Below are positions 30,898 to 47,067 of a stretch of DNA of 64,000 nt, one piece after another. Made by a program: the position numbers and the translations under genes. The notes under the pieces are model-generated. The model did not search any database. It worked only from the letters and a program-made list of their open reading frames with translations, and had not been told where the DNA came from. How positions within the stretch are numbered: position 1 is the first letter of the stretch; each line of letters starts with the position of its first letter. Source of the DNA: Cupriavidus basilensis (GTDB lineage: Bacteria; Pseudomonadota; Gammaproteobacteria; Burkholderiales; Burkholderiaceae). Location of the stretch: contig NZ_CP010537.1 of the NCBI RefSeq assembly GCF_000832305.1, positions 2,604,001-2,668,000 on the forward strand, in the 5' to 3' direction.

Positions 30898-31214
30898 GGC
30901 ATTCGCTTCTCGGGGAAATGGCCAGTCATGCAGGGGGCATGCGGCATCTCCGGATATCGGAGCCGGGCTCCCCTTCTTTAGCGAAAGGCGCGACAGGACC
31001 GCACGAAAGGCCACGAAGCGCAGAAAATGTCGCGTGAAGCACCAATATGGCGACAGGCTGTGCCAGGCCGAAACGCTCGCGCACCCGCACGGTGCCGAAA
31101 AACGCCTGCCATCCGCCCCCGAAAGCGGCGCAAATACGGCTACAATGCGCCTCGCACTCCACCCAGCAATTGCAATTGACTTGCAACTACCTGGCCAGTG
31201 GACTGCCAAGGGTT
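30898..31214. other. Intergenic region between chemoreceptor and cobalamin riboswitch
   Basis: 317 nt without a gene. TACAAT at 31141-31146 is the best -10 for the riboswitch transcript (start near 31153). The chemoreceptor's promoter must also lie here but no clear box is seen. Confidence 0.4.
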
Positions 31215-31465
31215 CGAAGGTGCCTCCGGCGCGTAGCGCGGCGGGGGTTAAACGGGAAACAGGTGCGCCGCCGGCCATGCCGCGGCTAATCCTGTGCTGC
31301 CCCCGCAACGGTCAGCAGGTACAAAGGTGTCACGCCGCGCCAACAGGCCGCGGCAGCCACTGCGCATCATCGCGCGGGAAGGCGGCACCCCGGACGCGCC
31401 CCCGCCCCACAAGGCAGACAAGGCAGGCGTCCCCCTGCAAGCCCGGATACCGGCCTTCGACCGAT
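31215..31465 (+). promoter_or_regulatory. Cobalamin (AdoCbl) riboswitch
   Basis: All core elements occur in order: GGTGCC near 31219, GCGGGGGTTAAACGGGAAAC (about 31241-31260), the B12-box region CTGTGCTGCCCCCGCAACGGT (31293-31313), GCCACTGCG, GGGAAGGC and finally CCCGGATACCGGCC (about 31442-31455). It precedes the HoxN/NixA-type permease on the same strand by about 360 nt and should shut it off when cobalamin is abundant. This marks the permease as a cobalt rather than nickel importer. Confidence 0.95.
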
Positions 31466-31827
31466 CACCGGGGCTGCGCACGGGCGGCCAGGCGTGAGAC
31501 GGCTGGCCACGCGCCTGGCCGTCACTGCGCGTTCGTCCGCGGCTGGTTCGTTTGTTGCCGCCGGGCGGGGTCGCCCGCGGCCAATGATGGAAAGCTCATG
31601 TCCGCGCGCCCTCGCATTGCCCATACCGCCTCACCGGCGGCCGCCAAGTCACGCAACCGTCGTCATGCACCCAAGCCGCCGCGCCAGCTCGCGCATCATT
31701 GCGCGCTCGCGCTGTCGCTGGGGGCCTTCGCCGGCCTCGGCGGCGGAAGATGCGCAACCTTCGGAGCGGGCGCAATCGCAGCCTGGCGTCCATCCATTCC
31801 GAATTCCCGATCTTTCACGGACCGCTC
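31466..31827 (+). other. Leader between riboswitch and cobalt permease
   Basis: 362 nt between the aptamer and the permease ATG, longer than needed for a simple expression platform. It holds the possible short coding frame at 31598-31843 and no other recognisable element. GC-rich inverted segments directly after the aptamer could form the terminator or sequestering stem, but I could not single one out. Confidence 0.4.
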
Positions 31828-31843
31828 ATGTTCCGCTTTCTAG
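31598..31843 (+). CDS. Possible 81-aa upstream membrane peptide overlapping the cobalt permease start
   Basis: ATG at 31598 with GGAAAG 5 nt upstream opens an 81-codon frame with a basic His/Arg-rich N-terminus and a hydrophobic segment (CALALSLGAFAGLGGG). It ends 16 nt inside the permease gene, an arrangement that allows coupled translation. No family is recognised and GC-rich DNA gives chance frames, so this is only a candidate. Confidence 0.3.
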   Translation: MSARPRIAHTASPAAAKSRNRRHAPKPPRQLAHHCALALSLGAFAGLGGGRCATFGAGAIAAWRPSIPNSRSFTDRSCSAF

Positions 31844-32886
31844 CCAGCATCTTCAACGACCAGGACGCCGACGTGCGCCGCAAGGTCATTGCGCTCTACG
31901 TCTTCCTGATCGCCGCCAACGTCGGGGCCTGGCTGTGGGCACTGGCAGCGTTGGGCGACCACCCCGTGCTGCTGGCGTCCGCTGTGCTCGCCTACACGCT
32001 GGGCCTGCGCCACGCCGTTGACGCCGACCATATCGCCGCCATCGACAACGTCACGCGCAAGCTGATGCAGGAAGGCAAGCGCCCGGTGACGGTCGGCTTC
32101 TTTTTCTCGCTCGGCCACTCCACCGTGGTCACGCTGATGTCGATCGGCATCGCGGTTGCCGCCGCAGCGCTGCAAACGCGCTTTGCCGACATGAAAGCCG
32201 TGGGCGGCATGATCGGCACCAGCGTCTCCGCGCTGTTCCTGTTCCTGCTGGCCTTCTTCAACCTGCTGATCCTGATCTCCGTGTGGCGTACCTTTCGCGC
32301 GGTCAAGCGCGGCGAAGCGCTCAAGGAGCAGGACCTGGACCTGCTGCTGAACAACCGCGGCGTGCTCTCGCGCCTGTTCCGCCCGCTGTTCCGGCTGGCC
32401 AGTCGCAGCTGGCACCTGTTCCCGATGGGGCTGCTGTTCGGCCTGGGCTTTGACACCGCGACCGAGGTCGCGCTGTTCGGGCTGTCCGCCGCAGAAGCCG
32501 CCAAGGGCGTGCCCTTCTGGACCATCATGGTGTTCCCCGCTCTCTTCACCGCCGGCATGTCGCTGGTAGACACCACCGACGGCGTCCTGATGCTCGGCGC
32601 CTACGGCTGGGCCTTCACCAAGCCGATCCGCAAGCTCTACTACAACATGACCATCACGCTGGTCTCGGTCGTGGCCGCGGTGGTCATCGGCGGCATCGAA
32701 GCACTCGGGCTGATTGCCGACAAGATCGGGCTGCAAGGCGGGCTGTGGGATGTGATCGCCGAGCTTAACGCGCATTTCGGCATGCTCGGCTATGTGATCA
32801 TCGGCGTGTTCGTGCTGAGCTGGCTGATCTCGATGGTGGTGTACCGGGTGCGGCGTTATGACGAGATCGAGGTGCGCTTGATGTGA
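31828..32886 (+). CDS. HoxN/HupN/NixA-type cobalt (nickel) permease
   Basis: NiCoT-family inner-membrane permease, 352 aa, eight helices. The signature metal-binding helix is intact: LRHAVDADHIAAIDN (about residues 60-74), with FFFSLGHSTVV, LFGLGFDTATEVALF and FPALFTAGMSLVDTTDG also present. These are the four NiCoT signatures. Start ATG at 31828 (MFRFLASIFNDQDADVRRK). The cobalamin riboswitch upstream indicates cobalt supply for B12 synthesis, consistent with the chelatase genes a few kb downstream. Confidence 0.94.
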   Translation: MFRFLASIFNDQDADVRRKVIALYVFLIAANVGAWLWALAALGDHPVLLASAVLAYTLGLRHAVDADHIAAIDNVTRKLMQEGKRPVTVGFFFSLGHSTVVTLMSIGIAVAAAALQTRFADMKAVGGMIGTSVSALFLFLLAFFNLLILISVWRTFRAVKRGEALKEQDLDLLLNNRGVLSRLFRPLFRLASRSWHLFPMGLLFGLGFDTATEVALFGLSAAEAAKGVPFWTIMVFPALFTAGMSLVDTTDGVLMLGAYGWAFTKPIRKLYYNMTITLVSVVAAVVIGGIEALGLIADKIGLQGGLWDVIAELNAHFGMLGYVIIGVFVLSWLISMVVYRVRRYDEIEVRLM

Positions 32887-34054: not shown

Positions 34055-34516
34055 TCATTTCCCGGCCGCACCCCACTCGGTACGACTCGCCGCGACCAGT
34101 ACGGCCCAATCATCCGGCGGATTTCCCCGCCCGAGCATTTTCTCAAAGACCGCGTAAGGATCCGACTTGCTGCCCGCGGAGCGCAGGGTCTGCTCATCGT
34201 TCACCCAGGCGAACACGATCACCTTCGAGCGAGAATCGTAGCGGAAGAACAGACGGAACCTGCGCCCGATTTTCGCCCGCCGCCAGTGCCGGTATGCCTC
34301 GCCCAGTGTATTGCCTTGCCGGAACTCTTCCCGCGAAGGGTCTCCGGGCACAACATCCAATATCAATTGGCTCAAGGCACGGAACAGTTTGACGTTGGCA
34401 TTGCGATCGAATCCAATTGGGTCATTCTGTTGCGCGCGCTGCGCCGCCCCGTGCAACTTGCGCAGTTGCTCGATCACCCCCTCATGAAACAGTAGCGTCC
34501 AGCCATGACGTTGCAT
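34055..34516 (-). CDS. yhaV: YhaV-type toxin of a type II toxin-antitoxin system
   Basis: 153-aa ribosome-dependent mRNA endoribonuclease of the YhaV (RelE-like) family. Recognised by MQRHGWTLLFHEGVIEQLRK, RHWRRAKIGRRFRLFFRYDS and the C-terminal VIVFAWVNDEQTLR motif, with basic catalytic candidates in RRFRLFFR. Normal family length. Its ATG overlaps the antitoxin stop by one base (TGATG), so antitoxin and toxin are translated in series. Confidence 0.92.
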   Translation of the reverse strand: MQRHGWTLLFHEGVIEQLRKLHGAAQRAQQNDPIGFDRNANVKLFRALSQLILDVVPGDPSREEFRQGNTLGEAYRHWRRAKIGRRFRLFFRYDSRSKVIVFAWVNDEQTLRSAGSKSDPYAVFEKMLGRGNPPDDWAVLVAASRTEWGAAGK

Positions 34517-34833
34517 CAGAGCTCCACGTCGCCGTCGATGTCCTGATCCAGCCTCTCCCCATGCCCGGCGTTTGCCAGCATGGCGTGAGCCAGATCTTCC
34601 GGCAGCGTCCGCAGGTGTCGCCCCGCACGGATATCGGCTTCCAGAAGGCGCAGGAAAGCACCGATCGCCGGGTCATCGTGCTGCGCATCGGCGCGCGTGA
34701 CGACGACCTCTCCATCACGTAGATCGAACGCCACTTTTCCGCCAGCGTCCACGCCAAGTACTTGCCGGATGGGCTTGGGGAGCGTGAGTTGCCCTTTGGA
34801 AGTCAAGGTAGCCACTTCGTGGATGTCGTGCAT
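34516..34833 (-). CDS. prlF: PrlF antitoxin
   Basis: 105-aa antitoxin of the PrlF (SohA) family: swapped-hairpin AbrB DNA-binding domain (VATLTSKGQLTLPKPIRQVL, residues 7-26) and a C-terminal toxin-binding part. Partner of the overlapping yhaV. The perfect 18-bp palindrome 28 nt before its start is the expected autoregulatory operator. Same strand as the chelatase operon, but separated from the vWA stop by about 170 nt. Confidence 0.92.
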   Translation of the reverse strand: MHDIHEVATLTSKGQLTLPKPIRQVLGVDAGGKVAFDLRDGEVVVTRADAQHDDPAIGAFLRLLEADIRAGRHLRTLPEDLAHAMLANAGHGERLDQDIDGDVEL

Positions 34834-35001: not shown

Positions 35002-35682
35002 TCACCCCATCAACGCATCCGCTACCAGATATTCCCCCTCCCACCCCCGCGCCAGCTGCCGGCAACGCCCCAGCGCCACCGCCTGGCGCTCGAAATCCAC
35101 CACCATCACCGCATCGGCCCAAGGCGGGCGCGGCGGCTGCTCCGTGCTGCGGCCGTCGCTGAGCAGCCACAGCCAGCGCTGTTGCGCCGGGCGCCGGCGC
35201 GCGGCGTGGGCCAGCAGTTGGCCGGCGCGCGCCATGCCGAGCGAGAGCGGCGTGCCGCCGCCGCCGGCGATCGGGCGGATCCAGGCTTCGCTCCATGGGC
35301 GGGCGCGTGCCGGCTGCAGGCGGACTTCGGCGCGGCCGGCGGCGAAGCACACCAGCGCCACCTCGGCGCGCGCCTGGTAGGCGCGTTGCAGCAGGCGCAG
35401 CAGCACACCCTTGGCCAGCGCTAGCTGGCGGCCGTGCAGCATCGAGGCCGAGCAATCGAGCACGAAGCAGTGCAGCACGCCGGCGTGCGCCTGCTGTGCG
35501 CGCCAGCGCAGATGGCTGGGCGCAAACGGCTGGCTGCCCTTGGCGGCCAGCGTCTGTGTCCAGTGGATGCGCAAGCTGCCCGGGCGGCCGTGCGGCGCGG
35601 CGAGAGATGCGGCAAAACGAGGGGCTTGCCACCGGTTGCCGCCTTGCCCGGGTTCGGCGGCGGCCTGCCGGTGGCTCAGGCT
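35002..35682 (-). CDS. chlD: vWA domain of cobaltochelatase (ChlD/CobT-like), reached by -1 frameshift
   Basis: 227-codon segment encoding a von Willebrand A domain: MIDAS motif as LDCSASM with a second piece GGGGTPLSLGM, and SDGR near the end. This is the second half of a ChlD/BchD-type subunit without its own AAA+ domain. No well-placed start codon precedes it; the frame is open upstream to an ATG at 35766 inside chlI without a ribosome site. The A7 run at the end of chlI plus a stem-loop lets ribosomes shift -1 here, giving a ChlI-vWA fusion of about 579 aa (353 residues from chlI plus 226). An independently started 254-aa protein from 35766 is the alternative. Confidence 0.75.
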   Translation of the reverse strand, partial: SLSHRQAAAEPGQGGNRWQAPRFAASLAAPHGRPGSLRIHWTQTLAAKGSQPFAPSHLRWRAQQAHAGVLHCFVLDCSASMLHGRQLALAKGVLLRLLQRAYQARAEVALVCFAAGRAEVRLQPARARPWSEAWIRPIAGGGGTPLSLGMARAGQLLAHAARRRPAQQRWLWLLSDGRSTEQPPRPPWADAVMVVDFERQAVALGRCRQLARGWEGEYLVADALMG

Positions 35683-35695
35683 TTTTTTGTGGGCA
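35628..35695 (-). other. Programmed -1 frameshift signal between chlI and vWA (chlD)
   Basis: On the coding (minus) strand: CCCACAAAAAAAGCCTGA, an A7 slippery run (35682-35688) overlapping the chlI end, a 6-nt spacer containing the TGA, then GCCACCGG (35668-35675) pairing perfectly with CCGGTGGC (35628-35635). A further GCCGCC/GGCGGC pairing lies within. GTGAGG about 12 nt upstream resembles a Shine-Dalgarno stimulator. Slippery site, spacer, stem and upstream SD are the standard parts of a bacterial -1 frameshift, and frameshifting in chlD-type chelatase genes has been described. Confidence 0.7.
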
Positions 35696-36740
35696 GCGGC
35701 CTCACGCCCTTGACCGGGGCAATGCCGGCCGCGGCGCTTGCCAGCGCAGGCGGGAGTGCCCCCCATGGGTTGTTGGCGGCTGCGTCGCCCGCACTGCGGC
35801 CATCGCCATCGCCGCTGCCATTCGCGTTGCCATCGCCATCAGCGTGCCCATCGGCCTGCCTGCCTGCATTGGGCGGCGCCTGGCGCCGGTGGTGCAAGAC
35901 CAGCTCCGCCACGGTGTCCACATGCGCGGGCACCACCGCCGCGTCGCACTGCAAGGCGGCCAGCGCGCGCGCCGCGCGCAGCATCACCAGGTCTGCCCGC
36001 ACGCCATCGACAGCGGCGGCCAGGCACAGGTGGCTGACACGCTCGTGCACGGCATCGCTGAACGAAAGCGCGGACAGTGCGCCGCGCGCGAGCCGCACCT
36101 TGCGCGTCAGCGCATCCTGCTCGGTGGCAAAGCGCGTGCACAGGGCCACCGGATCGTTGTCGAACGCGAGCCGGGCCTTGACGATCGCCTGGCGCTGCGC
36201 GGCGTCGGTACAGTTCTCCAGCGCCAGCGACAGGCCGAAACGGTCCAGCAACTGCGGGCGCAACTCGCCTTCTTCCGGGTTCATGGTGCCCACCAGCACG
36301 AAGCGCGCCTCGTGCTGGTGCGACACGCCGTCGCGCTCCACCACGTTGACGCCGCTGGCGGCCACGTCCAGCAACTGGTCGACGAGGTGATCCGGCAGCA
36401 GGTTGACTTCGTCCACATAAAGCACGCCCTGGTGCGCGCGCGCCAGCAGGCCGGGGGCAAAGCGGACCTCGCTCTGCTTAAGCACGTGGCCAAGGTCGAG
36501 CGTGCCGATCAGTTGCTCCTCGCTGGCGCCGAGCGGCAGCGTGACGAACTGGCCTTCGGGCAGCAATTGCGCAAGGGCCCGCGCCGCGGTCGACTTGGCC
36601 GTGCCGCGCGGGCCGCTGACCAGCACGCCACCGATGCCGGGGTCCACCGCGGCAAGCAGCAGCGCTTGCTGCAAGCGCTGCTGGCCGACCAGGGCGCTGA
36701 AGGGAAATGGCATGCGGGCGAGCCGGGCGGTTGCATTCAT
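35676..36740 (-). CDS. chlI: Cobaltochelatase AAA+ subunit ChlI/CobS-like (short product)
   Basis: 354-aa AAA+ ATPase of the Mg/Co-chelatase I-subunit family. Walker A variant SGPRGTAKSTAARAL (about residue 43), Walker B VLYVDEVNLLPDHLVDQLLD (about residue 105), and sensor region LVGTMNPEEGELRPQLLDRF. The C-terminal 60 residues hold an Asp/Gly/Asn-rich linker (ADGDGNANGSGDGDG) before TKKA and stop. The start ATG overlaps the cobN stop (ATGA). As the unshifted product it would be the small ATPase; the shifted product adds the vWA domain. Confidence 0.92.
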   Translation of the reverse strand: MNATARLARMPFPFSALVGQQRLQQALLLAAVDPGIGGVLVSGPRGTAKSTAARALAQLLPEGQFVTLPLGASEEQLIGTLDLGHVLKQSEVRFAPGLLARAHQGVLYVDEVNLLPDHLVDQLLDVAASGVNVVERDGVSHQHEARFVLVGTMNPEEGELRPQLLDRFGLSLALENCTDAAQRQAIVKARLAFDNDPVALCTRFATEQDALTRKVRLARGALSALSFSDAVHERVSHLCLAAAVDGVRADLVMLRAARALAALQCDAAVVPAHVDTVAELVLHHRRQAPPNAGRQADGHADGDGNANGSGDGDGRSAGDAAANNPWGALPPALASAAAGIAPVKGVRPLPTKKA

Positions 36741-39700
36741 GAGGGGATTCCTTCGATTCCTTCGATGCCTTCAAGCGCCTGCTCGCTGTCGAGCAGGTGT
36801 TGTTCCAGTTGGGCGCGACGCTCGCCCGGCTCCTGCCACAGGCCGCGCTGCGCCGCTTCGAGCAGGCGCTCGCAGATGGCGTGCAGCGCGCGCGGATTGT
36901 GCTGGCGCAGGAACGCGCGGGTGCCGGCGTCGTTTACATAGGCATCGGTCACCAGCGCGTACTGGTGATCGGCCACCACGCGGGTGGTGGCATCGAAGCC
37001 GAACAGGTAGTCCACCGTGGCGGCCATCTCGAACGCACCTTTGTAGCCGTGCCGCTTGACGCCGTCGATCCACTTGGGATTGACCACGCGCGCACGGATC
37101 ACGCGGCTGATTTCTTCCTGCAGCGTGCGGATGCGCGGCGCCGCCGGGTTGCTGTGGTCGCCATGGTAGATCGCCGGCTGCGCGCCGCCGAACTCGCGCG
37201 CGGCCGCCACCATGCCGCCCTGGAACTGGTAGTAGTCGTTGGCGTCGAGCAGGTCGTGCTCGCGGTTGTCCTGGTTCTGCACGACCGCGTCCAGGCTGGA
37301 CAGGCGCTCGGCAAAGCTGGCGCGCGCCTCGACGCCATCCGTGCCTTGCCCATAGGCGTAGCCGCCGGCATGCAGGTAGGCCTGCGCCAGGTCGCCGTCG
37401 TCCTGCCAGTTGCGGCTATCGATCAGGTCCTGCAGGCCGGTACCGTAGCCGCCCGGGCGGGCGCCGAACACGCGCCAGCCGGCACGGCGGCGCGCTTCAA
37501 GAGCGGGCACGCCCTCGGCTTCCAGCCGCGCGCGCTCGCTGTCGATGCGGGCGCGCACGGGATTGACTTCGGCGGGTTCGTCAAGCTCCGCCACCGCCTG
37601 CACGGCGGCATCGAACAGGCGCATGACGTTGGCGAAGGCATCGCGGAAGAACCCCGACACGCGCAGCGTGACGTCGACGCGCGGACGGTCGAAGATCGCC
37701 ATCGGCAAGATCTCGAAATCGGTCACGCGGTAGCTGCCGGCTGCCCACTTGGGCCGCACGCCCAGCAGCGCGAAGGCCTGCGCGATATCGTCGCCGCCGC
37801 TGCGCATGGTGGCGGTGCCCCAGACGGACAGCCCGATGGACCGCGGATACTCACCATGCGCCTGCAGGTGGCGCTCGATCAGCTGGTTGGCAGACTTCAG
37901 GCCCAGCGTCCATGCCGTGCGAGTCGGCACCGCACGCGTGTCGACCGAGTAGAAATTGCGCCCCGTGGGAAGGACATCCGGCCGGCCGCGCGAGGGCGCG
38001 CCGCTGGGGCCCGGCGGCACGAACCGCCCGGCCAGGCCACGCGACAGTTGCCGCATTTCCTGCGGGCCGCAGGCATCCAGGCGCGGCATGACGTCCTGGC
38101 GCAGGCGCGCGAGCACGGCAGAGGCTTGCGGCAAGGCAACGTCGCCAGCCATCTCGCCGAGCAACGCCGTGGCCAGCATTTCAAGGCGCTCGCGCGTATC
38201 GCCATGATGGCGCCACGGCCCGGCATCCAGCACGGCCAGTTGCGCCGGACGCGGCCCTTGCCAGGGCGCGGACCAGTCGGCATCGAGCGGGTCGAAGCCA
38301 TCGCCCAATGCTAGGTCGGCGGCCAGCGCCGCCAGCAAGCTGGCTTGCGCGCCCTTGCCGTCGCCCACCGGAAAGCGCCCGAGCGCGAGCAGCGTATCGC
38401 GCCGCTGGCGGCCCTGCGGCGACACGCCGAAAACGTGCAGGCCATCGCGGATCTGAGATTCCTTCAACTCGCACAGGTAAGCGTCGGTGCGGTTGAGCAG
38501 CGCATCTTCCCCATCGCTATCCGCCGGCGCATCCAGCCCCAGTTCACGATGCAGCTGCTGGTCCACGATCAGCTTCAGAATCTCCTTGCGCAGCAGCCGC
38601 GCGCGGCGCGGGTCCACCGCCAGCGCCTCGTAGTATTCGTCGACCTGCCGCTCCAGGTCCTGCAGCGGGCCATAACTCTCGGCGCGCGTGAGCGGCGGCA
38701 TCAGGTGGTCGATGATGACGGCCTGCGCGCGCCGCTTGGCCTGCGCGCCCTCGCCCGGGTCATTGACGATAAAGGGATAGAGATGCGGCAGTGGCCCAAG
38801 GATGGCATCGGGCCAGCAGGTATCGGCCAGCGCCACGCTCTTGCCGGGCAGCCATTCCAGGTTGCCGTGCTTGCCCACGTGGACGATGGCGTCGGCGCCA
38901 AAGCTGTGGCGCAGCCAGAAGTAGAACGCCAGGTAGCCATGCGGCGGCACCAGATCGGCATCGTGGTAGCTGGCGTAGCTCTGGCTGCCCTCCTCGCCCG
39001 GCAGCGCGTACGACCGGGCCGGCTGCAGCCCGACGAACAGATGTCCGCTGCGCACGCCGGCAATCATGAAGCGGCCCTGCCGCACCATCGGGTCCTGGTC
39101 CGGGCTGCCCCAGCGCTCGGCAAGGGCGCGCTGGTTGTCCGCCGGCAGGCGGCTCAGGTGCGCCAGGTAGTCGGCCATCGACAGGCTCTGGAACGCCGGC
39201 CGCAGGTCGCGGTGCGCCGGGTCGTTGGTGATGCCCTGCGTGAGCCCGCGCATCAGGTCCTCGCCATCGGCGGGCAGGCCTTCGCAATGGTAGCCCTGCT
39301 CGCGCAGCATGCCGAGAATGCCCACAACGGAGGCCGGCGTATCCAACCCCACGCCGTTGCCGATGCGCCCTTCGCTGGCCGGATAGTTGGCCAGCACCAG
39401 CGCCACGCGCTTGTCGGCGTTGTCCAGTTGCCGCAGGCGGCACCAGCGGCGGCTCAGCTCGGCCACAAAGGCGATACGCTGCGCGTCGGGCTGGTAGCGC
39501 ACCACGTCGACCTCGGTATGGGGGCAGCGGTAGGCCAGCCCCTTGAAGCTGACGGCGCGCGTGATGATGCGCCCATCCACCTCGGGCATGGCGATATGCA
39601 TGGCCACGTCGCGCGGACCCAGGCCCTGGCTGTCCTGCAGCCAGTCCTCGCGGTTGCCGCCGCTGAGGATCACCTGCAGCACCGGCGCGTCGCCGGCGAG

Positions 39701-40558
39701 CGCCAGGGTTTCAGGCGCGTCCAGCGACGAGACGGCAAACGCCGTGGTGTTCAGCACCAGCGCTGCGCCGTGACCGGCGCACAGATGCTGCAGCACTTCG
39801 CGGCACAGCGTGTCCTTGAGCGAGTTGACCGCCAGCGGCAGCGGGTTCATGCCCTGTGCACGCAAGGCGGCGATGAGGGCGTCGAACACAGCGGTGTTGC
39901 CAGCCTGCAGGTGGGCGCGGTAGAACACCAGCGCCACGACCGGCGCATCGGCGTGGCCATCCTGCGCCCACTCCCGCTGCCAGTCCGCCGCGGTAGCCAC
40001 GCCGTGTGCCGGGTGATAGATCGCCGCCTGCGGCAGCACGCGCGGCTGCAGCGCGGGCTCGCCCCAGCCGAAAGCGTGATGCGCCAGGCAGCGGAAGAAC
40101 TGCTCGGCGTTGTCCGCGCCGCCCTCGCGCAGGTAACGCCACAGGTTGCTGGCCAGCGCTTGCGGCGCGTTGCCGCGCCCGAGCAGGTTGGCGTCCTCGG
40201 CCAGGTCGCCGGAGAACATCACCAGCAGCTGGTTGCGCGAGCGCGCCAGTTCGGCCAGCCGCTCCAGGCCATAGGGCCAGTCGCTGTCGCCGCCTAGATG
40301 GTCGACCACCACCACGCGCGCGTGCTGCAGCACGTCGTCCACATACATGTCGAGCGAAGCCGGCTGGCGCAGGTACATCTGGTTGGCCAGCCGCACCGTG
40401 GGGAAATCCTCCCCCAGGCGCGGAAAGACGCCGGCCAGCAGCGACAGCGTGGTATCCGCCGCGCTGAGCACCACGATTTGCGCCGGGCTTTGCTCAATGC
40501 GCACCACGCCGGCGTTATCGTCGACGAAGCCGCCCGGACGGGTGGAAAGCAGGTGCAT
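36737..40558 (-). CDS. cobN: Cobaltochelatase large subunit CobN (cytosolic)
   Basis: 1273-aa catalytic subunit of the ATP-dependent cobaltochelatase that inserts Co(II) into hydrogenobyrinate a,c-diamide in the aerobic B12 pathway. Family length and motifs: HVGKHGNLEWLPGKSVALAD (about residue 560), VNDPGEGAQAKRRAQAVIID, GRNFYSVDTRAVPTRTAW, and GAFEMAATVDYLFGFDATTR near the end. No signal peptide. Co-translated with chlI (4-nt overlap) and preceded by cobW with 45 nt between. The helper ATPases here are ChlI/ChlD-like rather than CobS/CobT. Confidence 0.96.
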   Translation of the reverse strand: MHLLSTRPGGFVDDNAGVVRIEQSPAQIVVLSAADTTLSLLAGVFPRLGEDFPTVRLANQMYLRQPASLDMYVDDVLQHARVVVVDHLGGDSDWPYGLERLAELARSRNQLLVMFSGDLAEDANLLGRGNAPQALASNLWRYLREGGADNAEQFFRCLAHHAFGWGEPALQPRVLPQAAIYHPAHGVATAADWQREWAQDGHADAPVVALVFYRAHLQAGNTAVFDALIAALRAQGMNPLPLAVNSLKDTLCREVLQHLCAGHGAALVLNTTAFAVSSLDAPETLALAGDAPVLQVILSGGNREDWLQDSQGLGPRDVAMHIAMPEVDGRIITRAVSFKGLAYRCPHTEVDVVRYQPDAQRIAFVAELSRRWCRLRQLDNADKRVALVLANYPASEGRIGNGVGLDTPASVVGILGMLREQGYHCEGLPADGEDLMRGLTQGITNDPAHRDLRPAFQSLSMADYLAHLSRLPADNQRALAERWGSPDQDPMVRQGRFMIAGVRSGHLFVGLQPARSYALPGEEGSQSYASYHDADLVPPHGYLAFYFWLRHSFGADAIVHVGKHGNLEWLPGKSVALADTCWPDAILGPLPHLYPFIVNDPGEGAQAKRRAQAVIIDHLMPPLTRAESYGPLQDLERQVDEYYEALAVDPRRARLLRKEILKLIVDQQLHRELGLDAPADSDGEDALLNRTDAYLCELKESQIRDGLHVFGVSPQGRQRRDTLLALGRFPVGDGKGAQASLLAALAADLALGDGFDPLDADWSAPWQGPRPAQLAVLDAGPWRHHGDTRERLEMLATALLGEMAGDVALPQASAVLARLRQDVMPRLDACGPQEMRQLSRGLAGRFVPPGPSGAPSRGRPDVLPTGRNFYSVDTRAVPTRTAWTLGLKSANQLIERHLQAHGEYPRSIGLSVWGTATMRSGGDDIAQAFALLGVRPKWAAGSYRVTDFEILPMAIFDRPRVDVTLRVSGFFRDAFANVMRLFDAAVQAVAELDEPAEVNPVRARIDSERARLEAEGVPALEARRRAGWRVFGARPGGYGTGLQDLIDSRNWQDDGDLAQAYLHAGGYAYGQGTDGVEARASFAERLSSLDAVVQNQDNREHDLLDANDYYQFQGGMVAAAREFGGAQPAIYHGDHSNPAAPRIRTLQEEISRVIRARVVNPKWIDGVKRHGYKGAFEMAATVDYLFGFDATTRVVADHQYALVTDAYVNDAGTRAFLRQHNPRALHAICERLLEAAQRGLWQEPGERRAQLEQHLLDSEQALEGIEGIEGIPS

Positions 40559-40603: not shown

Positions 40604-41686
40604 TTACGCCGTACGCACGGCCGCGGCGCTCAGCGCAGCCTCCAGGGCAGCCTGCAGCGTGGGCTGGTCAAGCGCCTGGCCGATCAGCACGATACGCGTG
40701 GATTGCGCCTCGCCCGGCAGCCAGCGGCGGTCGAAGTAGCTGTCAAAGCGCCGTCCCACGCCATGCAGCACCAGCCGCATGGGCTTGGCGGGCAGCTTGG
40801 CAAAGCCCTTGATGCGGTAGATGGTGTGGCTTTCCACCAGCTGGCGCAGACCGTCGATCAGCTGATCGCGGTCCACCTCGCCCAGCGCTACGACGACGGA
40901 GTCGAACTCGTCGTGATGGTGGTCCGCGTGATCGGGATCGTCCGCCGAGCCGTGGTGATCCGGGCGCAGGTGAATGGTGTCTTCCGATGCGCGGTTCAGG
41001 CCCAGCAGCAACTCGATATCCAGCTTGCCGCCCTGCGCGCCGACGATCTTCACTTCGGCGGGGATCTCCGGGCGGATCAGCGCTTGCACTTCGGCGCGCT
41101 GCGCGTCGTCGATCAGGTCGGTCTTGTTGAGGATGACGAGGTCGGCCGCGCCGAGCTGGTCTTCGAACAGCGCGTGCAGCGGGGACTCGTGATCGAGGTT
41201 GGGATCGGCCTTGCGCTGCGCCTCCACGGCATCCGGGTCGGCAGCGAACTGGCCGGCCGCGGCTGCCGCGCCGTCCACCACGGTGACGACCGCGTCCACG
41301 GTAAAGGCGTTCTTGATGCTGGGCCAGTTGAAGGCCTGCACCAGCGGCTTGGGCAGCGCCAGGCCGGAGGTCTCGATCAGCACGTGGTCGATATCGCCGC
41401 GGCGCTCCAGCAATTGCTCCATTACCGGGAAGAATTCCTCCTGCACCGTGCAGCACAGGCAGCCGTTGGCCAGCTCATAGAGCTGGCCATTGCTCTGGCC
41501 GGATTCGTCGCAGCCGATGCCGCAACCCTTCAGGATCTCGCCATCGATGCCCAACTCGCCGAACTCGTTGACGATCACCGCAATGCGCCGTCCGTTGGCG
41601 TTTTCGAGAATATGGCGCAGCAAGGTGGTCTTGCCGCTGCCAAGGAAGCCGGTGACGATGGTGGCGGGGATTTTACGGGTCTGCAT
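40604..41686 (-). CDS. cobW: CobW family GTPase (COG0523 metallochaperone)
   Basis: 360-aa G3E GTPase proposed to hand cobalt to CobN. P-loop GFLGSGKTTLLRHIL (residues 13-27), the CxCC metal motif as GCLCCTV (about residue 75), ETSGLALPKPLV, and NKTDL base-recognition motif. A His/Asp-rich loop (HHGSADDPDHADHHHDEFD, about 243-261) is a probable metal site. The C-terminal CobW-C domain follows. It starts 172 nt after the upstream exported-CobN gene, so it may also have its own promoter there. Confidence 0.95.
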   Translation of the reverse strand: MQTRKIPATIVTGFLGSGKTTLLRHILENANGRRIAVIVNEFGELGIDGEILKGCGIGCDESGQSNGQLYELANGCLCCTVQEEFFPVMEQLLERRGDIDHVLIETSGLALPKPLVQAFNWPSIKNAFTVDAVVTVVDGAAAAAGQFAADPDAVEAQRKADPNLDHESPLHALFEDQLGAADLVILNKTDLIDDAQRAEVQALIRPEIPAEVKIVGAQGGKLDIELLLGLNRASEDTIHLRPDHHGSADDPDHADHHHDEFDSVVVALGEVDRDQLIDGLRQLVESHTIYRIKGFAKLPAKPMRLVLHGVGRRFDSYFDRRWLPGEAQSTRIVLIGQALDQPTLQAALEAALSAAAVRTA

Positions 41687-41858: not shown

Positions 41859-44800
41859 TCAGCGTGGCGCGGGCTGCCGCCGGCCACGGCCGCGCCACCA
41901 CTCCGCAAAGGCGCCAGCGCCGACCAGCAGCAGCATGAGCGCAGCGGTCCACAGCGCCTCGCGCGGCGCCAGGCCACCTGGCGGGGCGGGCGCGGCGAGC
42001 TTGAGCACGCGGCTTTCGAGCAACTGGCCTGTCACCTGGCCGGTCGCGGGACGCGGCGCCGGATGCGGCTTGGCCTGCCGAGCCGGCGGCGGACTCGCAC
42101 GGGATGCGTCGGGCGGTGCGGCCCGGCCAGAAGCAGCGGCCGGCGCGGCTGGCTCGCGCCCCGGCATGGCTGCTGCCAGCCGCGCGGAGAATTCGCGCAG
42201 CGCATCCGTGGGCAGCCGGGCTTGCTGCCCCAGCCCGGCGATGTACTGCATCAGCACGGGATTGCCGCAGCTATTGGCCGAACAGGACAAGCCGTCGCGA
42301 TTGACCGACGCCACATAGCGCCGTGCCATATCGGCGCGCTCGGCAGGCGTGAAGCGGTAGCTCCCCTGCCGGTCCACTTCCAGCAGCCGGGCCAGGATGC
42401 CCTGCCGCGCGTGCGGATTGTTTTGCGCAAAGAACGCGTCCATGCCCAGGCCGTTCTTGTCGGCCACATAGACGTCATAGGTGTTCTGCCAGAAGCTGCC
42501 ACTCATCTGCTCGGGGCTGGTGGCCTGGAAGCCGTAGAGATGCTCGATCTCCTTGAACATCTCGCGCGCGCCGGCGTAGCCCGAGCGCTGCATGCCTTCG
42601 ATCCAGCGCGGGTTCCAGTTGCGCGCGTTGAGTTCGGTGGCCAGCCAGGTGCGAGCATCCACGGTCTGCTCTTCGCCGGCGCGGCGCAGGTTGTGCAGCC
42701 AGAAGCGCGGCGCCTGTCCGCTGACGGCGCGCGTGGCCATGTTAAGGCCGCCGGCGTACTGATAGGTATCGTCGTTGTCGAGCGCGCCGTAAAGCGTGCT
42801 GGCGCGCGAGAACAGCACGGCCTGGTTGGATTTGAGGTGGCTGGCCAGCGCCTGCGGCGCGGTCTCGCCCCAGCCTTCGCTGGAGAACGCAAAGTTCATG
42901 TAGCGCAGGTACTGCCGCGCCAGCGCGCCAGGCGGCTCGCCGGCCTGCGCCGCGTCCTTGCTCTGCTCGACCATCTGCTGCACGCCGATGCTGTAGTTGC
43001 CGGGCTTGGCGGCGAACACGCGGGCGCGGGCCAGGCGCGCGGCCAGTTGCGGCGCCACGCCGGCTGCCAGCAGCGTGGCCTGCGCTTCGCGGTCGTGGCG
43101 GCTGATGGCGTTGTCGCCGGCGGCGGCGGCCAGGCGCGCGGCCTTGTCCAGCAGCGCCACCTTGTCGCCGAAGCCGTCGCGGTAGATGCCGGAGATGGTG
43201 AACAGCACATTGACGCGCGGGCGGCCGAGTTCGGCATCGGGGATCAGGCGCACATCCTCCACCACGCCGCGCGCATTCCAGACCGGCTCCACGCCCATCA
43301 GGTAGAGCGCCTCGCTCTCCATCGCGCCTTGGTGGCGCTCGGTCTCGCCGTACCACAGCACCATCGATACCTGCTCGGGCGCCTTGCCGGTTTCCTCGCG
43401 ATAGCGCGCGAGCGTCTGCGCGGCCAGTTGCTTGCCGAGCTGCCAGGCTGCGGGCGTGGGGATCAGCGCGCCGTCGAAGGCGTGCAGGTTGCGCCCGGTG
43501 GGCAGGCCCTGCGGGGTGCGCACGGGGTCGCCCAGCGGCGAGCTCGGCAGGTAGCGGCCGGACAGCACGGTCACCAGGCCATCCAGCTCGCGGCGCGGCG
43601 ATTCGCGCAGATTGGCCAGCCATGCGCGCGTACTGGACAGCGCGGTTTCTACCTTCTCCGCCAGCGGCGGCGGCAATGGCGCGTGCGCGGCGCTGTCCGG
43701 CTCGCGGCCTTCCGCCAATGCGCCGGCCCAGCGCGAGAGCACGTCCTTGCCGATCTGCCGCGCCTCGCTCGCGTCGAATGCGCTTTCCAGCACGGTGGCC
43801 AGCGCCTGGCGCTGCGCGTCCAACGGCGGCAGCTCGCCCAGCGTGTGAATGCCCAGCGGCACCGGCTCGGCTTCCACCTTATGCAAGAAGCGGTGGATCA
43901 CCGGCTCGACCTGCTCCCATGGCGCGCCGGAATCCAGCCCGAGCTGGCGGTCCAGTCCAAGGGCGCGGATCTGCGCCAGCGCCTGCAGGCGGTATTGGTC
44001 CGCCAGCGCCGGGGCGCTGTCGGCGGCGGCCTCCTGCTGCTCGATCACCTCGTCGAGCTTGGCCAGCTTGTCCGGCCAGCCGGCGCGGGCGATCAGCGGG
44101 GTCAGGTGGCTGACCAGCACGGCGGCGCTGCGGCGCTTGGCCTGGATGGCTTCGCCGCCGCCGTCCTGGATGTAGTAGTAGGCGTTGGGCAGGTCGCCCA
44201 GCAACACCTCGGCGCTGTCGTCGCCGCTTTGCCCCACCTGCTTGCCAGGCAGCCATTCCAGCGTGCCGTGGCGGCCCACGTGGACCATCGCGTCCGCGCC
44301 GAAGGCGTGGCGATACCACAGGTAGGCGGCGATATAGGAGTGCGGCGGCGGCGTCACCGTATCGTGCGCGCTGTCCATCGCTCGCGCGAAGGTGGAGCGC
44401 AGCGGCTGCGGGCCAACGAACAGATTACCGAAGCGCAGGCCCGGAATCACGAAATCCTGCCCGCCATGGCCGTCACCCACCAGCATCAGCGGATTGCGCT
44501 CGGGCGGACCCCACGCGGCCACCACCGACTGGCGAAACGCCGCCGGCAAGGCATCGAACCAGCGCTTGTACTGCGCCATCGGCAGCAGCGTAACGCGGCC
44601 GCGCGACACCATCTCAGCCAGTTCGCCGGGCGACCATTCCTCCATATTGCGGCCATTGCGCTCCAGCAGCGCGGTCAGCTCGGCGGTGTCCGGCAGCGTG
44701 GCGCCCGTGCGGTAGCCCGCCTCGCGCAGCCGCGCCATGACCTGCACCAGCGAGGGCAGCGTAGCCAGGTAGCTGGCGCCGATATTGCCGCGGCCCGGCG

Positions 44801-45965
44801 GGTTGTTGTAGTAGAGGATGGCGATGCGCTTGTCCGCCGCGGGCTTGTCCTGCAGCGCGATCCAGCGCCGCACGCGGGCCACCGCCGCGTCTGCCCGCTC
44901 CGGCACGGCACGGCTGGCCTTGGCGCCGTGTTCGTCCTCCAGCGTGGCGAACAGGATCGGCTCCGAGGCGCCGGCCCGCTCGGGCGTGTTAAGCAGCAGT
45001 GCCAGGCGCTCGCCGCCAATGCCGCGCGCATCGGCCCGCCAGCCGGCCTGGCTGTCGCGCGTGGCGATCAGGTTGATGGCGTGCAGGCCGTGGCGCTCCA
45101 GCCAGGTCTTGTCCTCGGCGCGGCTGATGGTGAGGTTCAGCGCCAGCAACGCGCGCAGCGGGCTTTGGCCATCGACCGTGAGCATCGCATCCAGGCCGGA
45201 CAGCGGCCAGCCGAACACCGGCACCGCCCCGATGCCCTGGCGCTCCAGCGCCGCGATCAGCGCATCGATATGCGCGAGATCCTGCTGGCGATAGTTGCTG
45301 GCATAGAAGGCAATGCCGACCAGCGGTGCGCCGGCCGGCAGGCCGCTTGCGCCGGCGCGGTACCAGGCGAGATAGTCCTTGAGCGTGGCAAACGCTTGCG
45401 CGGCGCGCGGGTGATAGATGCCGGCCGCGGGCAGCGGTCGCGGCGGCGGCACGGCCATGGCCTGCTCGCCGCGCACGGCGGCCACCAGCCATGCCATCCA
45501 GCCCGCGAGGTTGTCGGCGCCGCCGGCGCTCCAGTAAGCCTCGGCGGCCTGGTTGCGCGCGGCGTCCAGGCCAAAGCCCCAGGCGGCCTCGGCGGACGCT
45601 GCCGGCGCGGCCAGCACCAGCGCGCCGCGCTGCCGCGCCTGGCGCACGGCCGGCGCCATCTGGCGCAGCACGGCCGTGGGGACGAAGTACGCGTAGATGA
45701 CATCGGCGGCGGCGACTTGCGCGGCATCGGGCGCTGCCGTCACGGCGTCCAGCACCACCCTGCCCGGCCCGGCCAGCTCGCGCAGGCGCGCTTCGGCCGC
45801 AGGCAGCAGGTGCGTGTTGGTGGTGACCAGCAGCACGCGTACCGGGGCTGGCGGTCCGGGCTGGGCTGCGCGGGCGTGGCCCGGGCCGGCAAGGCACCCG
45901 CACAGCAGCCCGAGCATCAGCAGCAGCCAGCGCTGCCACAGCGAACCCCGCCGCGCCGAAGCCAT
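41859..45965 (-). CDS. Exported, membrane-anchored CobN-like chelatase
   Basis: 1368-aa CobN/BchH-family protein that differs from the cytosolic copy by an N-terminal signal peptide (LLLMLGLLCGCLAGPGHARA, residues 13-32), a Pro/Ala-rich linker and one C-terminal transmembrane helix (WTAALMLLLVGAGAFAEWW, about 1338-1356) with a basic tail. The catalytic body therefore sits outside the cytoplasm. Family motifs are kept: HVGRHGTLEWLPGKQVGQSG, GGEAIQAKRRSAAVLVSHLT, GYAGAREMFKEIEHLYGFQA. The ATG at 45965 overlaps the stop of the DUF2149 gene (TGATG). CobN homologues with ExbB-like and DUF2149 partners occur in Bacteroidetes hmu haem loci; the present substrate (haem, corrin, another tetrapyrrole) is unknown. 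No ATPase could serve it in the periplasm, so the partners probably supply energy. Confidence 0.9.
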   Translation of the reverse strand: MASARRGSLWQRWLLLMLGLLCGCLAGPGHARAAQPGPPAPVRVLLVTTNTHLLPAAEARLRELAGPGRVVLDAVTAAPDAAQVAAADVIYAYFVPTAVLRQMAPAVRQARQRGALVLAAPAASAEAAWGFGLDAARNQAAEAYWSAGGADNLAGWMAWLVAAVRGEQAMAVPPPRPLPAAGIYHPRAAQAFATLKDYLAWYRAGASGLPAGAPLVGIAFYASNYRQQDLAHIDALIAALERQGIGAVPVFGWPLSGLDAMLTVDGQSPLRALLALNLTISRAEDKTWLERHGLHAINLIATRDSQAGWRADARGIGGERLALLLNTPERAGASEPILFATLEDEHGAKASRAVPERADAAVARVRRWIALQDKPAADKRIAILYYNNPPGRGNIGASYLATLPSLVQVMARLREAGYRTGATLPDTAELTALLERNGRNMEEWSPGELAEMVSRGRVTLLPMAQYKRWFDALPAAFRQSVVAAWGPPERNPLMLVGDGHGGQDFVIPGLRFGNLFVGPQPLRSTFARAMDSAHDTVTPPPHSYIAAYLWYRHAFGADAMVHVGRHGTLEWLPGKQVGQSGDDSAEVLLGDLPNAYYYIQDGGGEAIQAKRRSAAVLVSHLTPLIARAGWPDKLAKLDEVIEQQEAAADSAPALADQYRLQALAQIRALGLDRQLGLDSGAPWEQVEPVIHRFLHKVEAEPVPLGIHTLGELPPLDAQRQALATVLESAFDASEARQIGKDVLSRWAGALAEGREPDSAAHAPLPPPLAEKVETALSSTRAWLANLRESPRRELDGLVTVLSGRYLPSSPLGDPVRTPQGLPTGRNLHAFDGALIPTPAAWQLGKQLAAQTLARYREETGKAPEQVSMVLWYGETERHQGAMESEALYLMGVEPVWNARGVVEDVRLIPDAELGRPRVNVLFTISGIYRDGFGDKVALLDKAARLAAAAGDNAISRHDREAQATLLAAGVAPQLAARLARARVFAAKPGNYSIGVQQMVEQSKDAAQAGEPPGALARQYLRYMNFAFSSEGWGETAPQALASHLKSNQAVLFSRASTLYGALDNDDTYQYAGGLNMATRAVSGQAPRFWLHNLRRAGEEQTVDARTWLATELNARNWNPRWIEGMQRSGYAGAREMFKEIEHLYGFQATSPEQMSGSFWQNTYDVYVADKNGLGMDAFFAQNNPHARQGILARLLEVDRQGSYRFTPAERADMARRYVASVNRDGLSCSANSCGNPVLMQYIAGLGQQARLPTDALREFSARLAAAMPGREPAAPAAASGRAAPPDASRASPPPARQAKPHPAPRPATGQVTGQLLESRVLKLAAPAPPGGLAPREALWTAALMLLLVGAGAFAEWWRGRGRRQPAPR

Positions 45966-46381
45966 CAACGCGCGCCCGGGGCCGAGGCCGCGCCGGCCGC
46001 CGCGCCTTCCGGCACATACACCACGCTGCCATCCGGCAACTGGTAAGCCACCCCCAGCCGGGTGCCCTCGCCCGTCTTCTGCCGCGGGGACATCTTGCTG
46101 ACCTTGACCTCCTTGCGGTTCTTCTCCAGCAATTGCAGCTCACCGGTGCGCGGATCGCGCTGGACCAGGGTGAACTGCGAGTCGGGATTGAGCAGCTGGG
46201 TCAGGCTGAACGCTTGCGTGAGCGCCACCATCAGGCCCACGGCAAAGACGATGGAGGCATCGAACAGGTTGGCCACGCCGGCCAGCGGGTCTTCCCGATG
46301 CACCGAGGCAAGCTCGCCCTGCGCGCGGCGACGGCGCACAAAGCGCCGCCGCCTGAACGGGTGTCCCTGGCCCGCGTCCAT
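45965..46381 (-). CDS. DUF2149 family single-pass membrane protein
   Basis: 138-aa protein with a basic cytosolic N-terminus, one helix (NLFDASIVFAVGLMVALTQA, about residues 38-57) and a periplasmic domain, the same topology as ExbD/TolR. EDPLAGVANLFDASIVFAVG is the DUF2149 signature. Start ATG overlaps the stop of the ExbB-like gene and its stop overlaps the chelatase start, so all three are translationally coupled in one stoichiometric unit. Confidence 0.88.
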   Translation of the reverse strand: MDAGQGHPFRRRRFVRRRRAQGELASVHREDPLAGVANLFDASIVFAVGLMVALTQAFSLTQLLNPDSQFTLVQRDPRTGELQLLEKNRKEVKVSKMSPRQKTGEGTRLGVAYQLPDGSVVYVPEGAAAGAASAPGAR

Positions 46382-47067
46382 CAGGCCTGGGTCCCGGCCA
46401 GATGGATGGCGGCGCGCGCGTGCGCCGCGGGCGCCACCGGTTCAGGCATGGCCCGCAGCACCAGCTCGCACAGGTTTTCCATTTCCTTGAGATCGCTGCG
46501 CGCCCAGCGCTCGCGTGTGAGCGTCAGCACGTAGGCGATGCCGCCCAGCACCAGCCCGCAGACGACCGCGCCAAAGCCGATCACCAGGTGATTGACCATG
46601 CCGGCCATATCGCCGCCGAGCAGCGATTGCAGCGCCGGCCCGAGCGGGATGATGGTGCCGGCCAGGCCCAGCATCGGTGCGATGCGCACCAGTGTGCGGG
46701 TCAGGTCGAGCCGGTTGGCCACGCGCATTTCCTCGCGCTGCAGCGTTTCGTCCAGCCACAGGTCAAGGTGTTCGTACGAATCGAGCCGGGAGAGCCGTTC
46801 TTCCAGCATGCCCCAGAAGCGGGCCAGCGAAGGCGACAGCAATGCCGCGCCCAGATGCGCTTGCGTGCCATTTTGCAGGCTGGAGGCCAGCGCATTGGCC
46901 AGCGCGGGCAGATCGCTGCGCGGCGCCACGGCGCGGCGCCGGGACTGCACGATCAGGCTGCCGAGATCGGCTAGCGCGAGCACGAACAGCACCAGCAACG
47001 CCAGCGCGACCGGCCAGAAGAACGCCGTGGAAAGGCGGAAGAAAATCTCGGTGACGACGCTTTCCAT
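46381..47067 (-). CDS. MotA/TolQ/ExbB-like proton channel protein
   Basis: 228-aa inner-membrane protein with three helices (about residues 15-36, 128-150, 160-184) and the family core LVRIAPMLGLAGTIIPLGPA before helix 2. Such proteins form pentameric proton channels that drive ExbD/TolR-type partners; here the partner would be the DUF2149 protein. First gene of the run leading to the exported CobN homologue. No TonB, ExbD or TonB-dependent receptor gene is adjacent. Confidence 0.9.
   Translation of the reverse strand: MESVVTEIFFRLSTAFFWPVALALLVLFVLALADLGSLIVQSRRRAVAPRSDLPALANALASSLQNGTQAHLGAALLSPSLARFWGMLEERLSRLDSYEHLDLWLDETLQREEMRVANRLDLTRTLVRIAPMLGLAGTIIPLGPALQSLLGGDMAGMVNHLVIGFGAVVCGLVLGGIAYVLTLTRERWARSDLKEMENLCELVLRAMPEPVAPAAHARAAIHLAGTQA

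Follow-up and report, generated by a model that had tools for sequence, protein, structure and literature searches.

A third CobN-related family, BtuS, is credited in PMC6460266 to Rodionov 2003, with BtuS1 and BtuS2 in Bacteroides fragilis. According to PMC12583661 and PMC6460266, HmuS and BtuS relatives serve haem iron in Bacteroides. HmuU and HmuV have been assigned to energising a TonB receptor (PMC10100974, PMC12583661), and both are currently described as helpers of the outer-membrane receptor. In Pseudomonas aeruginosa, PA1923 (CobN-like), PA1924 (annotated ExbD) and PA1925 (DUF2149) are placed in the Zur regulon by PMC9431628 and PMC4542158. We analysed a related trio of genes in a 64,000-nucleotide stretch of Cupriavidus basilensis DNA (the window; coordinates below are positions in it), encoding an ExbB/TolQ-like protein, a DUF2149 protein and a large CobN-like protein, hereafter the body. 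An earlier note, made from the sequence alone, had proposed that the body is an exported chelatase powered by proton-motive force through the ExbB-DUF2149 pair.

The trio belongs by sequence to a known family that appears here in a new genomic role, and we present evidence for HmuU/HmuV-type pairs driving a chelatase and not a TonB receptor. On balance, this comparative evidence makes it more probable than not that the ExbB-DUF2149 pair is coupled to the body. We regard it as an even call that the trio is, in full, a periplasm-facing, anchored BtuS/HmuS-type chelatase with its own proton-driven motor, acting on a cobalt corrinoid or a close metallotetrapyrrole.

Organization of the trio

The trio and the adjoining cobW-cobN-chlI-chlD genes all lie on the minus strand. 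The trio has the following features.

46381..47067, minus strand: ExbB/TolQ-like proton-channel protein (HmuU-type), 228 amino acids (aa); PF01618 (MotA_ExbB), E=6e-9
45965..46381, minus strand: DUF2149 single-pass protein (HmuV-type), 138 aa; PF09919, E=2.8e-25
41859..45968, minus strand: CobN-like (BtuS-type) chelatase body, predicted to be exported, with a Pro-rich linker and an anchor at the C-terminus; PF02514 (CobN-Mg_chel), E=3e-285
42018..42035, minus strand: juxtamembrane motif VTGQLL of the CobN-like protein
41895..41957, minus strand: C-terminal hydrophobic helix of the CobN-like protein, by hydropathy

Both junctions read TGATG, in which a stop and a start codon share one base, bearing out the one-base overlaps at 46381 and 45965 given in the earlier note. 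The body is 1368 aa long from the ATG at 45965 and 1369 aa from the TTG at 45968. Ratios of dN/dS between 0.06 and 0.26 indicate purifying selection on the six genes measured (CobN-like, CobN, CobW, ChlI, DUF2149 and ExbB; ChlD was left out).

Retention of the pair in Cupriavidus

We surveyed 60 Cupriavidus genomes, in which full-length true CobN occurs in 20 and a window-type body in 21. The source genome (8.42 Mb, two contigs) holds a second trio, termed type A, consisting of TonB receptor, CobN-like protein, ExbB, DUF2149 and ChaN genes (L006 6955-15205; contig C1 near 4458954-4467204). The window-type body lies beside cobN in 19 of 19 genomes with a visible neighbourhood (of the 21 carriers), mostly with cobW in between, and DUF2149 is present in all 21. 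A cis ExbB-DUF2149 pair stands beside the body in six genomes and is missing from 14; the odd carrier, G305, which has a CobN-family match cut by the contig, is left out of both groups. All 14 genomes without a cis pair retain a full-length DUF2149 at the type-A locus. The type-A body itself is gone in nine of them (L131-L139), and in eight of these nine loci the TonB receptor has gone too, while ExbB, DUF2149 and ChaN remain in their original position downstream of RND genes. The state of the type-A body switches at least four times within this set of 14.

Of the 39 genomes that have no window-type body, 13 carry a full-length DUF2149, and 12 of those 13 have an intact CobN-like body, the exception being G318, with DUF2149, a body in pieces and no window-type body. 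Among genomes lacking an intact type-A body, DUF2149 survives in 9 of 11 that have a window-type body versus 1 of 27 that do not (Fisher p=3e-6, kinship uncorrected). When an intact ExbB is also required, the counts are 8 of 11 versus 1 of 27 (Fisher p=3e-5, again uncorrected for kinship). The remaining two of the 11 have the pair in cis, and 24 of the 27 carry no type-A body and no DUF2149 and perhaps never had the locus. Window-type reading frames are intact in all carriers fetched except G304, a draft of 420 contigs in which both bodies are split over frames and whose type-A body was counted as present. Together, these gene-loss patterns suggest that the pair drives the CobN-like enzyme and not the outer-membrane receptor of its published assignment. 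The coupling of body and pair proposed earlier is supported by their joint retention, in cis or in trans.

A juxtamembrane motif accompanies the pair

Most anchored bodies carry a V-x-G-x-x-M/L segment between a linker, Pro-rich or charged, and the membrane helix, which we scored as [VIL]-x-G-x-x-[MLIVF] within 40 residues before the C-terminal helix. The motif is present in 91 of the 95 bodies that have a DUF2149 gene no more than 6 kb away (shuffled expectation 5.1), in 22 of 22 with DUF2149 elsewhere in the genome (1.7) and in one of 14 from genomes without DUF2149 (1.2). It is found in neither of two bodies (L058, L062) whose genome's DUF2149 adjoins a second, motif-bearing body (L148, L149; shuffled expectation 0.0), and in 15 of 16 bodies left unassigned as to pair status (0.9). 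Pooling the first two groups gives 113 of 117 versus 1 of 14 (Fisher p=1e-13, kinship uncorrected). On the body tree, with 127 scored rows, the motif changes state seven times; the four exceptions near DUF2149 (L023, L024, L026, L034) sit on long branches. Excluded from the count are repeats (L051-L056, L192), L048 (upstream unseen), L172 (C-terminus broken), true CobN, bodies truncated at the edge of a locus and those with a profile score below 600; four bodies that lack a C-terminal helix are listed apart.

All but one (L170) of the 14 DUF2149-less bodies adjoin a TonB receptor, and the motif is missing in 12 of these 13 receptor-linked bodies. Contigs in several DUF2149-less genomes are very long (6.2 Mb in G377; 4.7 and 3.5 Mb in G428), which makes the absence credible, genome completeness itself not being reported. 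The earlier note had named CobN bodies routinely occurring without the ExbB-like and DUF2149 genes as a finding that would speak against it; bodies in DUF2149-less genomes do exist, but 13 of the 14 also lack the motif. The strict version, in which the pair is always needed, is rejected on account of these 14.

We also screened 120 genomes of the Bryobacterales, the order of the Bryobacter locus L086. A CobN-family match occurs in 43 and a DUF2149 match in 30, and 28 of these 30 have both; of the two exceptions, G370 is a hit below the cut-off and the other is G396, discussed below. Nine solo Bryobacterales bodies have a DUF2149 at a distance, and all nine bear the motif (VEGRRL, VEGRIL, VAGRRL). 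The distant pair was examined in five (L174-L178), where ExbB and DUF2149 stand together with no body; for the remaining four it is represented by the DUF2149 match alone. Three genomes (G374, G380, G388) have only a solo body and a distant pair. Fifteen Bryobacterales genomes have a body match and no DUF2149; 12 were examined, one of which (G446) was dropped with L172, and G454, G470 and G474 stand outside the count. That the motif comes and goes with the pair supports pair-body coupling.

On two contigs a solo body and a pair lie 52-54 kb apart (L157/L174 in G371; L161/L175 in G374).

Fold and conserved residues of the pair

The AlphaFold model of the window ExbB has a pLDDT of 90 and matches ExbB/TolQ chains of the PDB in Foldseek with probability 1.00 (best E 0.004); together with a PF01618 score above cut-off, this supports the ExbB/TolQ-like identity read from the sequence. 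Invariant among 45 aligned sequences are P19, R45, P131, G134, L135, T138, I140, P141, L146, G152, F165 and W188.

In DUF2149, a D-P-x(5)-N-L-x-D segment opens the sole membrane helix. Its last Asp, Asp41, is invariant in the 94 sequences, of 96, that have the position, and hhalign pairs it with the ExbD/TolR Asp in four proteins encoded in this genome (E=4e-4, probability 34%, a weak match). The AlphaFold model, of low confidence (pLDDT 67 overall), shows a helix at 32-64 and a small beta domain, for which no PDB match was found; PF02472 (ExbD/TolR) gave no match up to E 0.01, and a PDB sequence search with the window ExbB and DUF2149 returned nothing useful. Since the outer part is modelled as a beta domain without a PDB match, DUF2149 would be ExbD-like in the membrane only, and its identification as an ExbD by fold is rejected. 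The ExbD-like topology put forward earlier is supported, tentatively, for the membrane segment with its invariant Asp and does not extend to the outer domain, a different, low-confidence beta model.

Family, export and residues of the body

The body scores below the cut-offs of all nine NCBIfam CobN/BchH models that it matches; against TIGR02257 it reaches 550 bits, short of the cut-off of 822. The nearest solved structures by sequence are HmuS (9d26, 477 bits), CobN (413) and ChlH (359). In a FastTree phylogeny of 142 of 265 family sequences, from which near-duplicates were dropped and ChlH was absent, CobN-like bodies split from true CobN rows with 100% support.

The cavity histidine of HmuS, H538, is conserved in the window body and is His in 263 of the 265 sequences, a set that includes near-duplicates and true CobN. 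At the positions of HmuS His1209 and Glu1212 the window body has Asp and Gln, as CobN does. No Met or His was seen at the HmuS Met79/His254 head-neck haem site in the one phmmer alignment used, which is divergent in this region. Likewise, the methionine-rich HmuS insertion is missing, about 42 residues separating the aligned halves in the window body versus about 210 in HmuS. Since H538 is kept but Asp and Gln replace His1209 and Glu1212, the sequence places the CobN-like protein in the third CobN family (BtuS/HmuS), neither CobN nor HmuS in the strict sense.

The N-terminus has, by eye, a stretch that resembles a signal peptide and closes with the motif ARA; its hydropathy lies under the cut-off in the window body and above it in most window-type orthologues. 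A hydrophobic helix at about 1337-1355, found by hydropathy, is followed by RGRGRR. Hydropathy thus favours the extracytoplasmic, membrane-anchored location assumed earlier.

His at the 1209 position occurs in eight of the 265 sequences, including four Burkholderiales loci (L014, L019, L020, L034). In the trios of these four loci the residues that correspond to HmuS 1209 and 1212 are His and Glu, making their bodies candidate haem de-chelatases outside Bacteroidota. Two deltaproteobacterial metagenome-assembled genomes carry tandem arrays of four (L120) and three (L130) CobN-like genes, in which some copies have long low-complexity tails past the anchor.

Neighbouring genes, metal and substrate

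The trio sits 172 bp upstream of cobW-cobN-chlI-chlD on the same strand. The cytosolic cobaltochelatase set, earlier described as fused to the trio, adjoins it and is not fused.

40604..41686, minus strand: CobW metallochaperone GTPase; TIGR02475, 503 bits versus cut-off 332
36737..40558, minus strand: true cytosolic CobN; TIGR02257, 1608 bits versus cut-off 822
35676..36740, minus strand: ChlI/CobS-type AAA+ subunit; PF01078, with TIGR02442 and TIGR02030 matches under cut-off
35002..35766, minus strand: ChlD-type VWA subunit; PF13519, and the C-terminal part of TIGR02442, under cut-off
31699..32886, plus strand: NicO nickel/cobalt permease; PF03824, E=9e-106
31201..31472, plus strand: cobalamin riboswitch before NicO; RF00174, 69.6 bits, gathering score 31.5

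A pattern screen of 125 loci and window positions 24001-60000 found cobalamin riboswitches in ten sequences, all confirmed with Rfam. Six (L007, L024, L026, L066, L083, L116) lie upstream of related trio or receptor-body operons on the same strand, with a gap to ExbB of about 0.7 kb in L116; the L066 operon, led by its riboswitch, belongs to a genome without DUF2149. Three others (L115, L023, L051) precede a neighbouring gene and the tenth is the window's; in L051, from another Cupriavidus, the gene is again NicO. Riboswitches have been reported before hmu-like operons in Bacteroides (PMC10100974), so the riboswitch-trio finding is an extension of that report. Control of the window operon by its riboswitch is not supported, the switch preceding NicO on the opposite strand.

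The corrin-ring gene CbiC was found in 0 of 60 Cupriavidus genomes versus 7 of 14 control genomes in the same search, CbiC being the only corrin-ring enzyme searched. A corrinoid salvage locus has on one strand a riboswitch, TonB receptor, FecCD permease, ABC ATPase, BtuR/CobO, a CobT-type phosphoribosyltransferase and a CobC-like phosphatase, and on the other CbiB/CobD, an aminotransferase and a periplasmic binding protein. No TonB receptor hit was obtained in window positions 24001-60000. The earlier link of such trios to haem loci is right for the family; the window copy tracks cobW and cobN and has no haem receptor beside it.

In the 1.75 kb upstream of the window trio, the best match to the Fur consensus has 8 mismatches in 19, with shuffles of a shorter region giving a minimum of 6 and a median of 9. 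Fur or Zur control of the window trio is not supported, the best matches falling within the shuffled range. Linkage to cobW-cobN, NicO behind a riboswitch, the riboswitch-led salvage locus in a genus where CbiC was not found, and riboswitches ahead of related operons all speak for cobalt or a corrinoid. A cobalt corrinoid is our best single guess for the substrate of the window body, and we would expect that guess to fail about twice as often as it holds.

Several further features were noted around these genes. A YhaV-family toxin gene (Pfam) lies at 34055-34833, next to the cob operon, and the 105-aa gene upstream of it we take to be AbrB-like. A Bcj14 small RNA (RF02836) lies at 63112-63284. 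In L042 (10460-12196), L044 and L047 a gene of 562-595 aa separates the CobN-like gene from cobW, and in L042 it encodes a peptidase M30. Several of the loci L035-L047 (e.g. L036-L038) have an intergenic inverted repeat, GTGGGG-TC-CCCCAC, upstream of the CobN-like gene. An alignment upstream of the CobN-like genes of the second Cupriavidus group showed a TAGAAT-like box and no recognisable operator.

Origin of the window trio and the type-A locus

On the body tree, the Cupriavidus window-type bodies form one clade (100%) nested among rows that, where named, are Acidobacteriota, mostly Bryobacterales. Its sister rows include the Bryobacter body L086, whose locus has the identical order ExbB-DUF2149-body. 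With 50 DUF2149 and 45 ExbB sequences aligned, L086 is also the closest to the window's proteins outside Cupriavidus (DUF2149 66%, ExbB 53%; next 48% and 36%). These affinities indicate that the trio was probably transferred as a unit, landing beside the cobaltochelatase operon.

The type-A body belongs to another clade than the window body, and recent duplication of one from the other is rejected (35% identity, different clades). A shared Fur-box-like site precedes the type-A receptor; of the ten loci compared, L006 has GCGAATTATTATC and the other nine have GAGAATTATT[AC]TC, with 0 to 3 of 200 shuffles equally good. The site is absent from the 1.3 kb upstream of ExbB in the eight receptor-less orphan loci. 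In five of these eight, another stretch matches the Fur consensus, all but 0-2 of 200 shuffles being no better, and we therefore do not claim loss of Fur control there.

Alternative explanations

The strongest competitor, which we hold to be unlikely, is that the body is a de-chelatase of haem or another iron-tetrapyrrole, an HmuS orthologue by function that stands beside cob genes by chance. HmuS is indeed its closest solved structure (477 bits versus 413 for CobN), HmuS/BtuS relatives are described as serving haem iron in Bacteroides, and a trio in the same genome combines a Fur-box-like site with a TonB receptor and ChaN. An iron/haem-type trio, however, is already present in this genome. 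Moreover, Asp and Gln replace His1209 and Glu1212, Met79 and His254 are unmatched and the long insertion is missing, the Fur match upstream stays within the shuffle range and no TonB receptor is adjacent. Rather less probable is acquisition of zinc or another metal, in which the body would strip Zn or Co from a metallophore or porphyrin. The Zur-regulated PA1922-PA1925 of Pseudomonas aeruginosa could work in this way, and the rise in cellular cobalt that PMC4542158 reports for a znuA mutant would fit; the best match to the Zur consensus near the window trio, however, lies within the shuffle range, and the neighbours are cobalt and B12 genes.

We give a similarly small chance to the pair energising TonB-dependent outer-membrane transport, the CobN-like protein needing no motor. 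This is the published assignment of HmuU/HmuV, 51 of the 67 fetched non-Cupriavidus loci in which DUF2149 lies close to the body also contain a TonB receptor gene, and some solo bodies have a receptor but no pair. Yet the window trio has no receptor, and in eight of nine orphan loci the pair has outlived receptor and body, only alongside a window-type body (G318 apart). The 13 of 14 DUF2149-less bodies that adjoin a receptor imply that a body beside a receptor can do without the pair; trios are also found in archaea, and the body motif follows the pair. Very improbable, finally, is a relic or passenger, with cob genes left over from loss of corrin synthesis and a horizontally acquired body. 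CbiC in 0 of 60 genomes and the nesting of the body in an acidobacterial clade would agree with it; dN/dS of 0.06-0.26 in six genes, intact frames outside the draft G304 and linkage in 19 of 19 visible neighbourhoods argue otherwise.

The motor-driven chelatase has evidence of its own to answer. The cis-pair state changes once on the tree, so that a single loss makes the 14 genomes without a cis pair not 14 events. In the ninth orphan locus (G344, L137) the receptor is kept, and both ExbB and ChaN are broken across two frames, through either decay or sequencing error. The 14 bodies that occur in genomes without any DUF2149 come from 12 genomes, and six of the nine solo-body Bryobacterales genomes have another body with an adjacent DUF2149. 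G396 (L179) has a clear ExbB-DUF2149 pair with no body detected, and either speaks against strict dependence or is incompletely sequenced. The match of DUF2149 to ExbD is weak, most fetched trios lack a riboswitch, the window operon itself lacks one (only NicO on the opposite strand has it), and the loss of corrin synthesis is judged by CbiC as sole enzyme. The Pseudomonas relative of the trio responds to zinc (PMC4542158, PMC9431628). According to PMC12583661, HmuS needs NADH and no ATP, and recombinant HmuS without anchors converts haem, so that a motor is unnecessary for its reaction in vitro.

Proposed mechanism

Comparison shows anchors by hydropathy, the ExbB fold of the model, the invariant Asp, joint retention and motif-pair co-occurrence. 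From these we infer direct contact, proton flow and movement that drives metal removal or insertion. ExbB and DUF2149 would form an ExbB/ExbD-like channel, in which protons passing Asp41 of DUF2149 would move the complex. The body would take up the movement via its C-terminal helix and the adjacent V-x-G-x-x-M/L segment, the motor replacing the AAA+ ATPases of cytosolic CobN, and would remove metal in the periplasm. NicO, CobW and the cytosolic CobN-ChlI-ChlD could then use the freed cobalt to metallate salvaged corrin, a role proposed because the lineage salvages corrinoids yet shows no CbiC gene. Trios without a TonB receptor in the locus also occur in methanosarcinal archaea (L126, L129), whose cells have no outer membrane.

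We consider it possible, if somewhat short of probable, that the ExbB-DUF2149 pair is a further class of MotA/ExbB-type motor with a chelatase as its load. Proton flow would then power the removal of metal from a tetrapyrrole, or its insertion, outside the cytoplasm, with the C-terminal V-x-G-x-x-M/L segment as the contact. In Cupriavidus, a corrin salvager, the motor would work together with the cytosolic cobaltochelatase, so that corrinoids lose their metal outside and receive cobalt inside. If the pair drives the chelatase, tetrapyrrole metal chemistry can be powered by proton-motive force, and there would be a testable mechanism for CobN-like proteins that are so far unexplained in archaea and many bacteria. 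The Cupriavidus case also raises the question of why a cobaltochelatase is under purifying selection in a genus without a detectable CbiC gene. The motif and Asp41 offer single-residue tests.

Comparison with known systems

The window body resembles the BtuS family: it is CobN-like yet separate from CobN and ChlH, and predicted to be exported and anchored in the membrane. Some hmu-like operons carry B12 riboswitches (PMC10100974). The window body differs in lying next to genuine cytosolic cobaltochelatase genes in a genus where CbiC was not found, in having no adjacent TonB receptor, and in a pair that may stand in cis or in trans. With the HmuYRSTUV system of Bacteroidota as described in PMC12583661, the trio shares the body, the ExbB-like HmuU and the DUF2149 protein HmuV, as well as N- and C-terminal anchors and the cavity His538. 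Unlike that system, it has no HmuR beside the body, and its alignments show no equivalents of His1209, Glu1212, Met79 and His254 nor the long insertion of HmuS.

PA1922-PA1925 likewise unites CobN-like, annotated ExbD and DUF2149 proteins in one operon, but the Pseudomonas aeruginosa operon has a TonB receptor and zinc regulation (PMC4542158, PMC9431628). The class I chelatases CobN-CobS-CobT and ChlH-ChlI-ChlD have a body of the same family, and CobN agrees with the window body in the Asp and Gln at the HmuS His1209/Glu1212 positions; the window body, in contrast, is predicted to be exported and has ExbB-DUF2149 in place of a shown AAA+ partner of its own. The pair, for its part, has the ExbB fold in common with ExbB-ExbD, TolQ-TolR, MotA-MotB and ZorA-ZorB, and the conserved membrane Asp of DUF2149 may correspond to that of their partner subunits, whereas the outer domain of DUF2149 is different in the model and the load that we propose for it is a chelatase.

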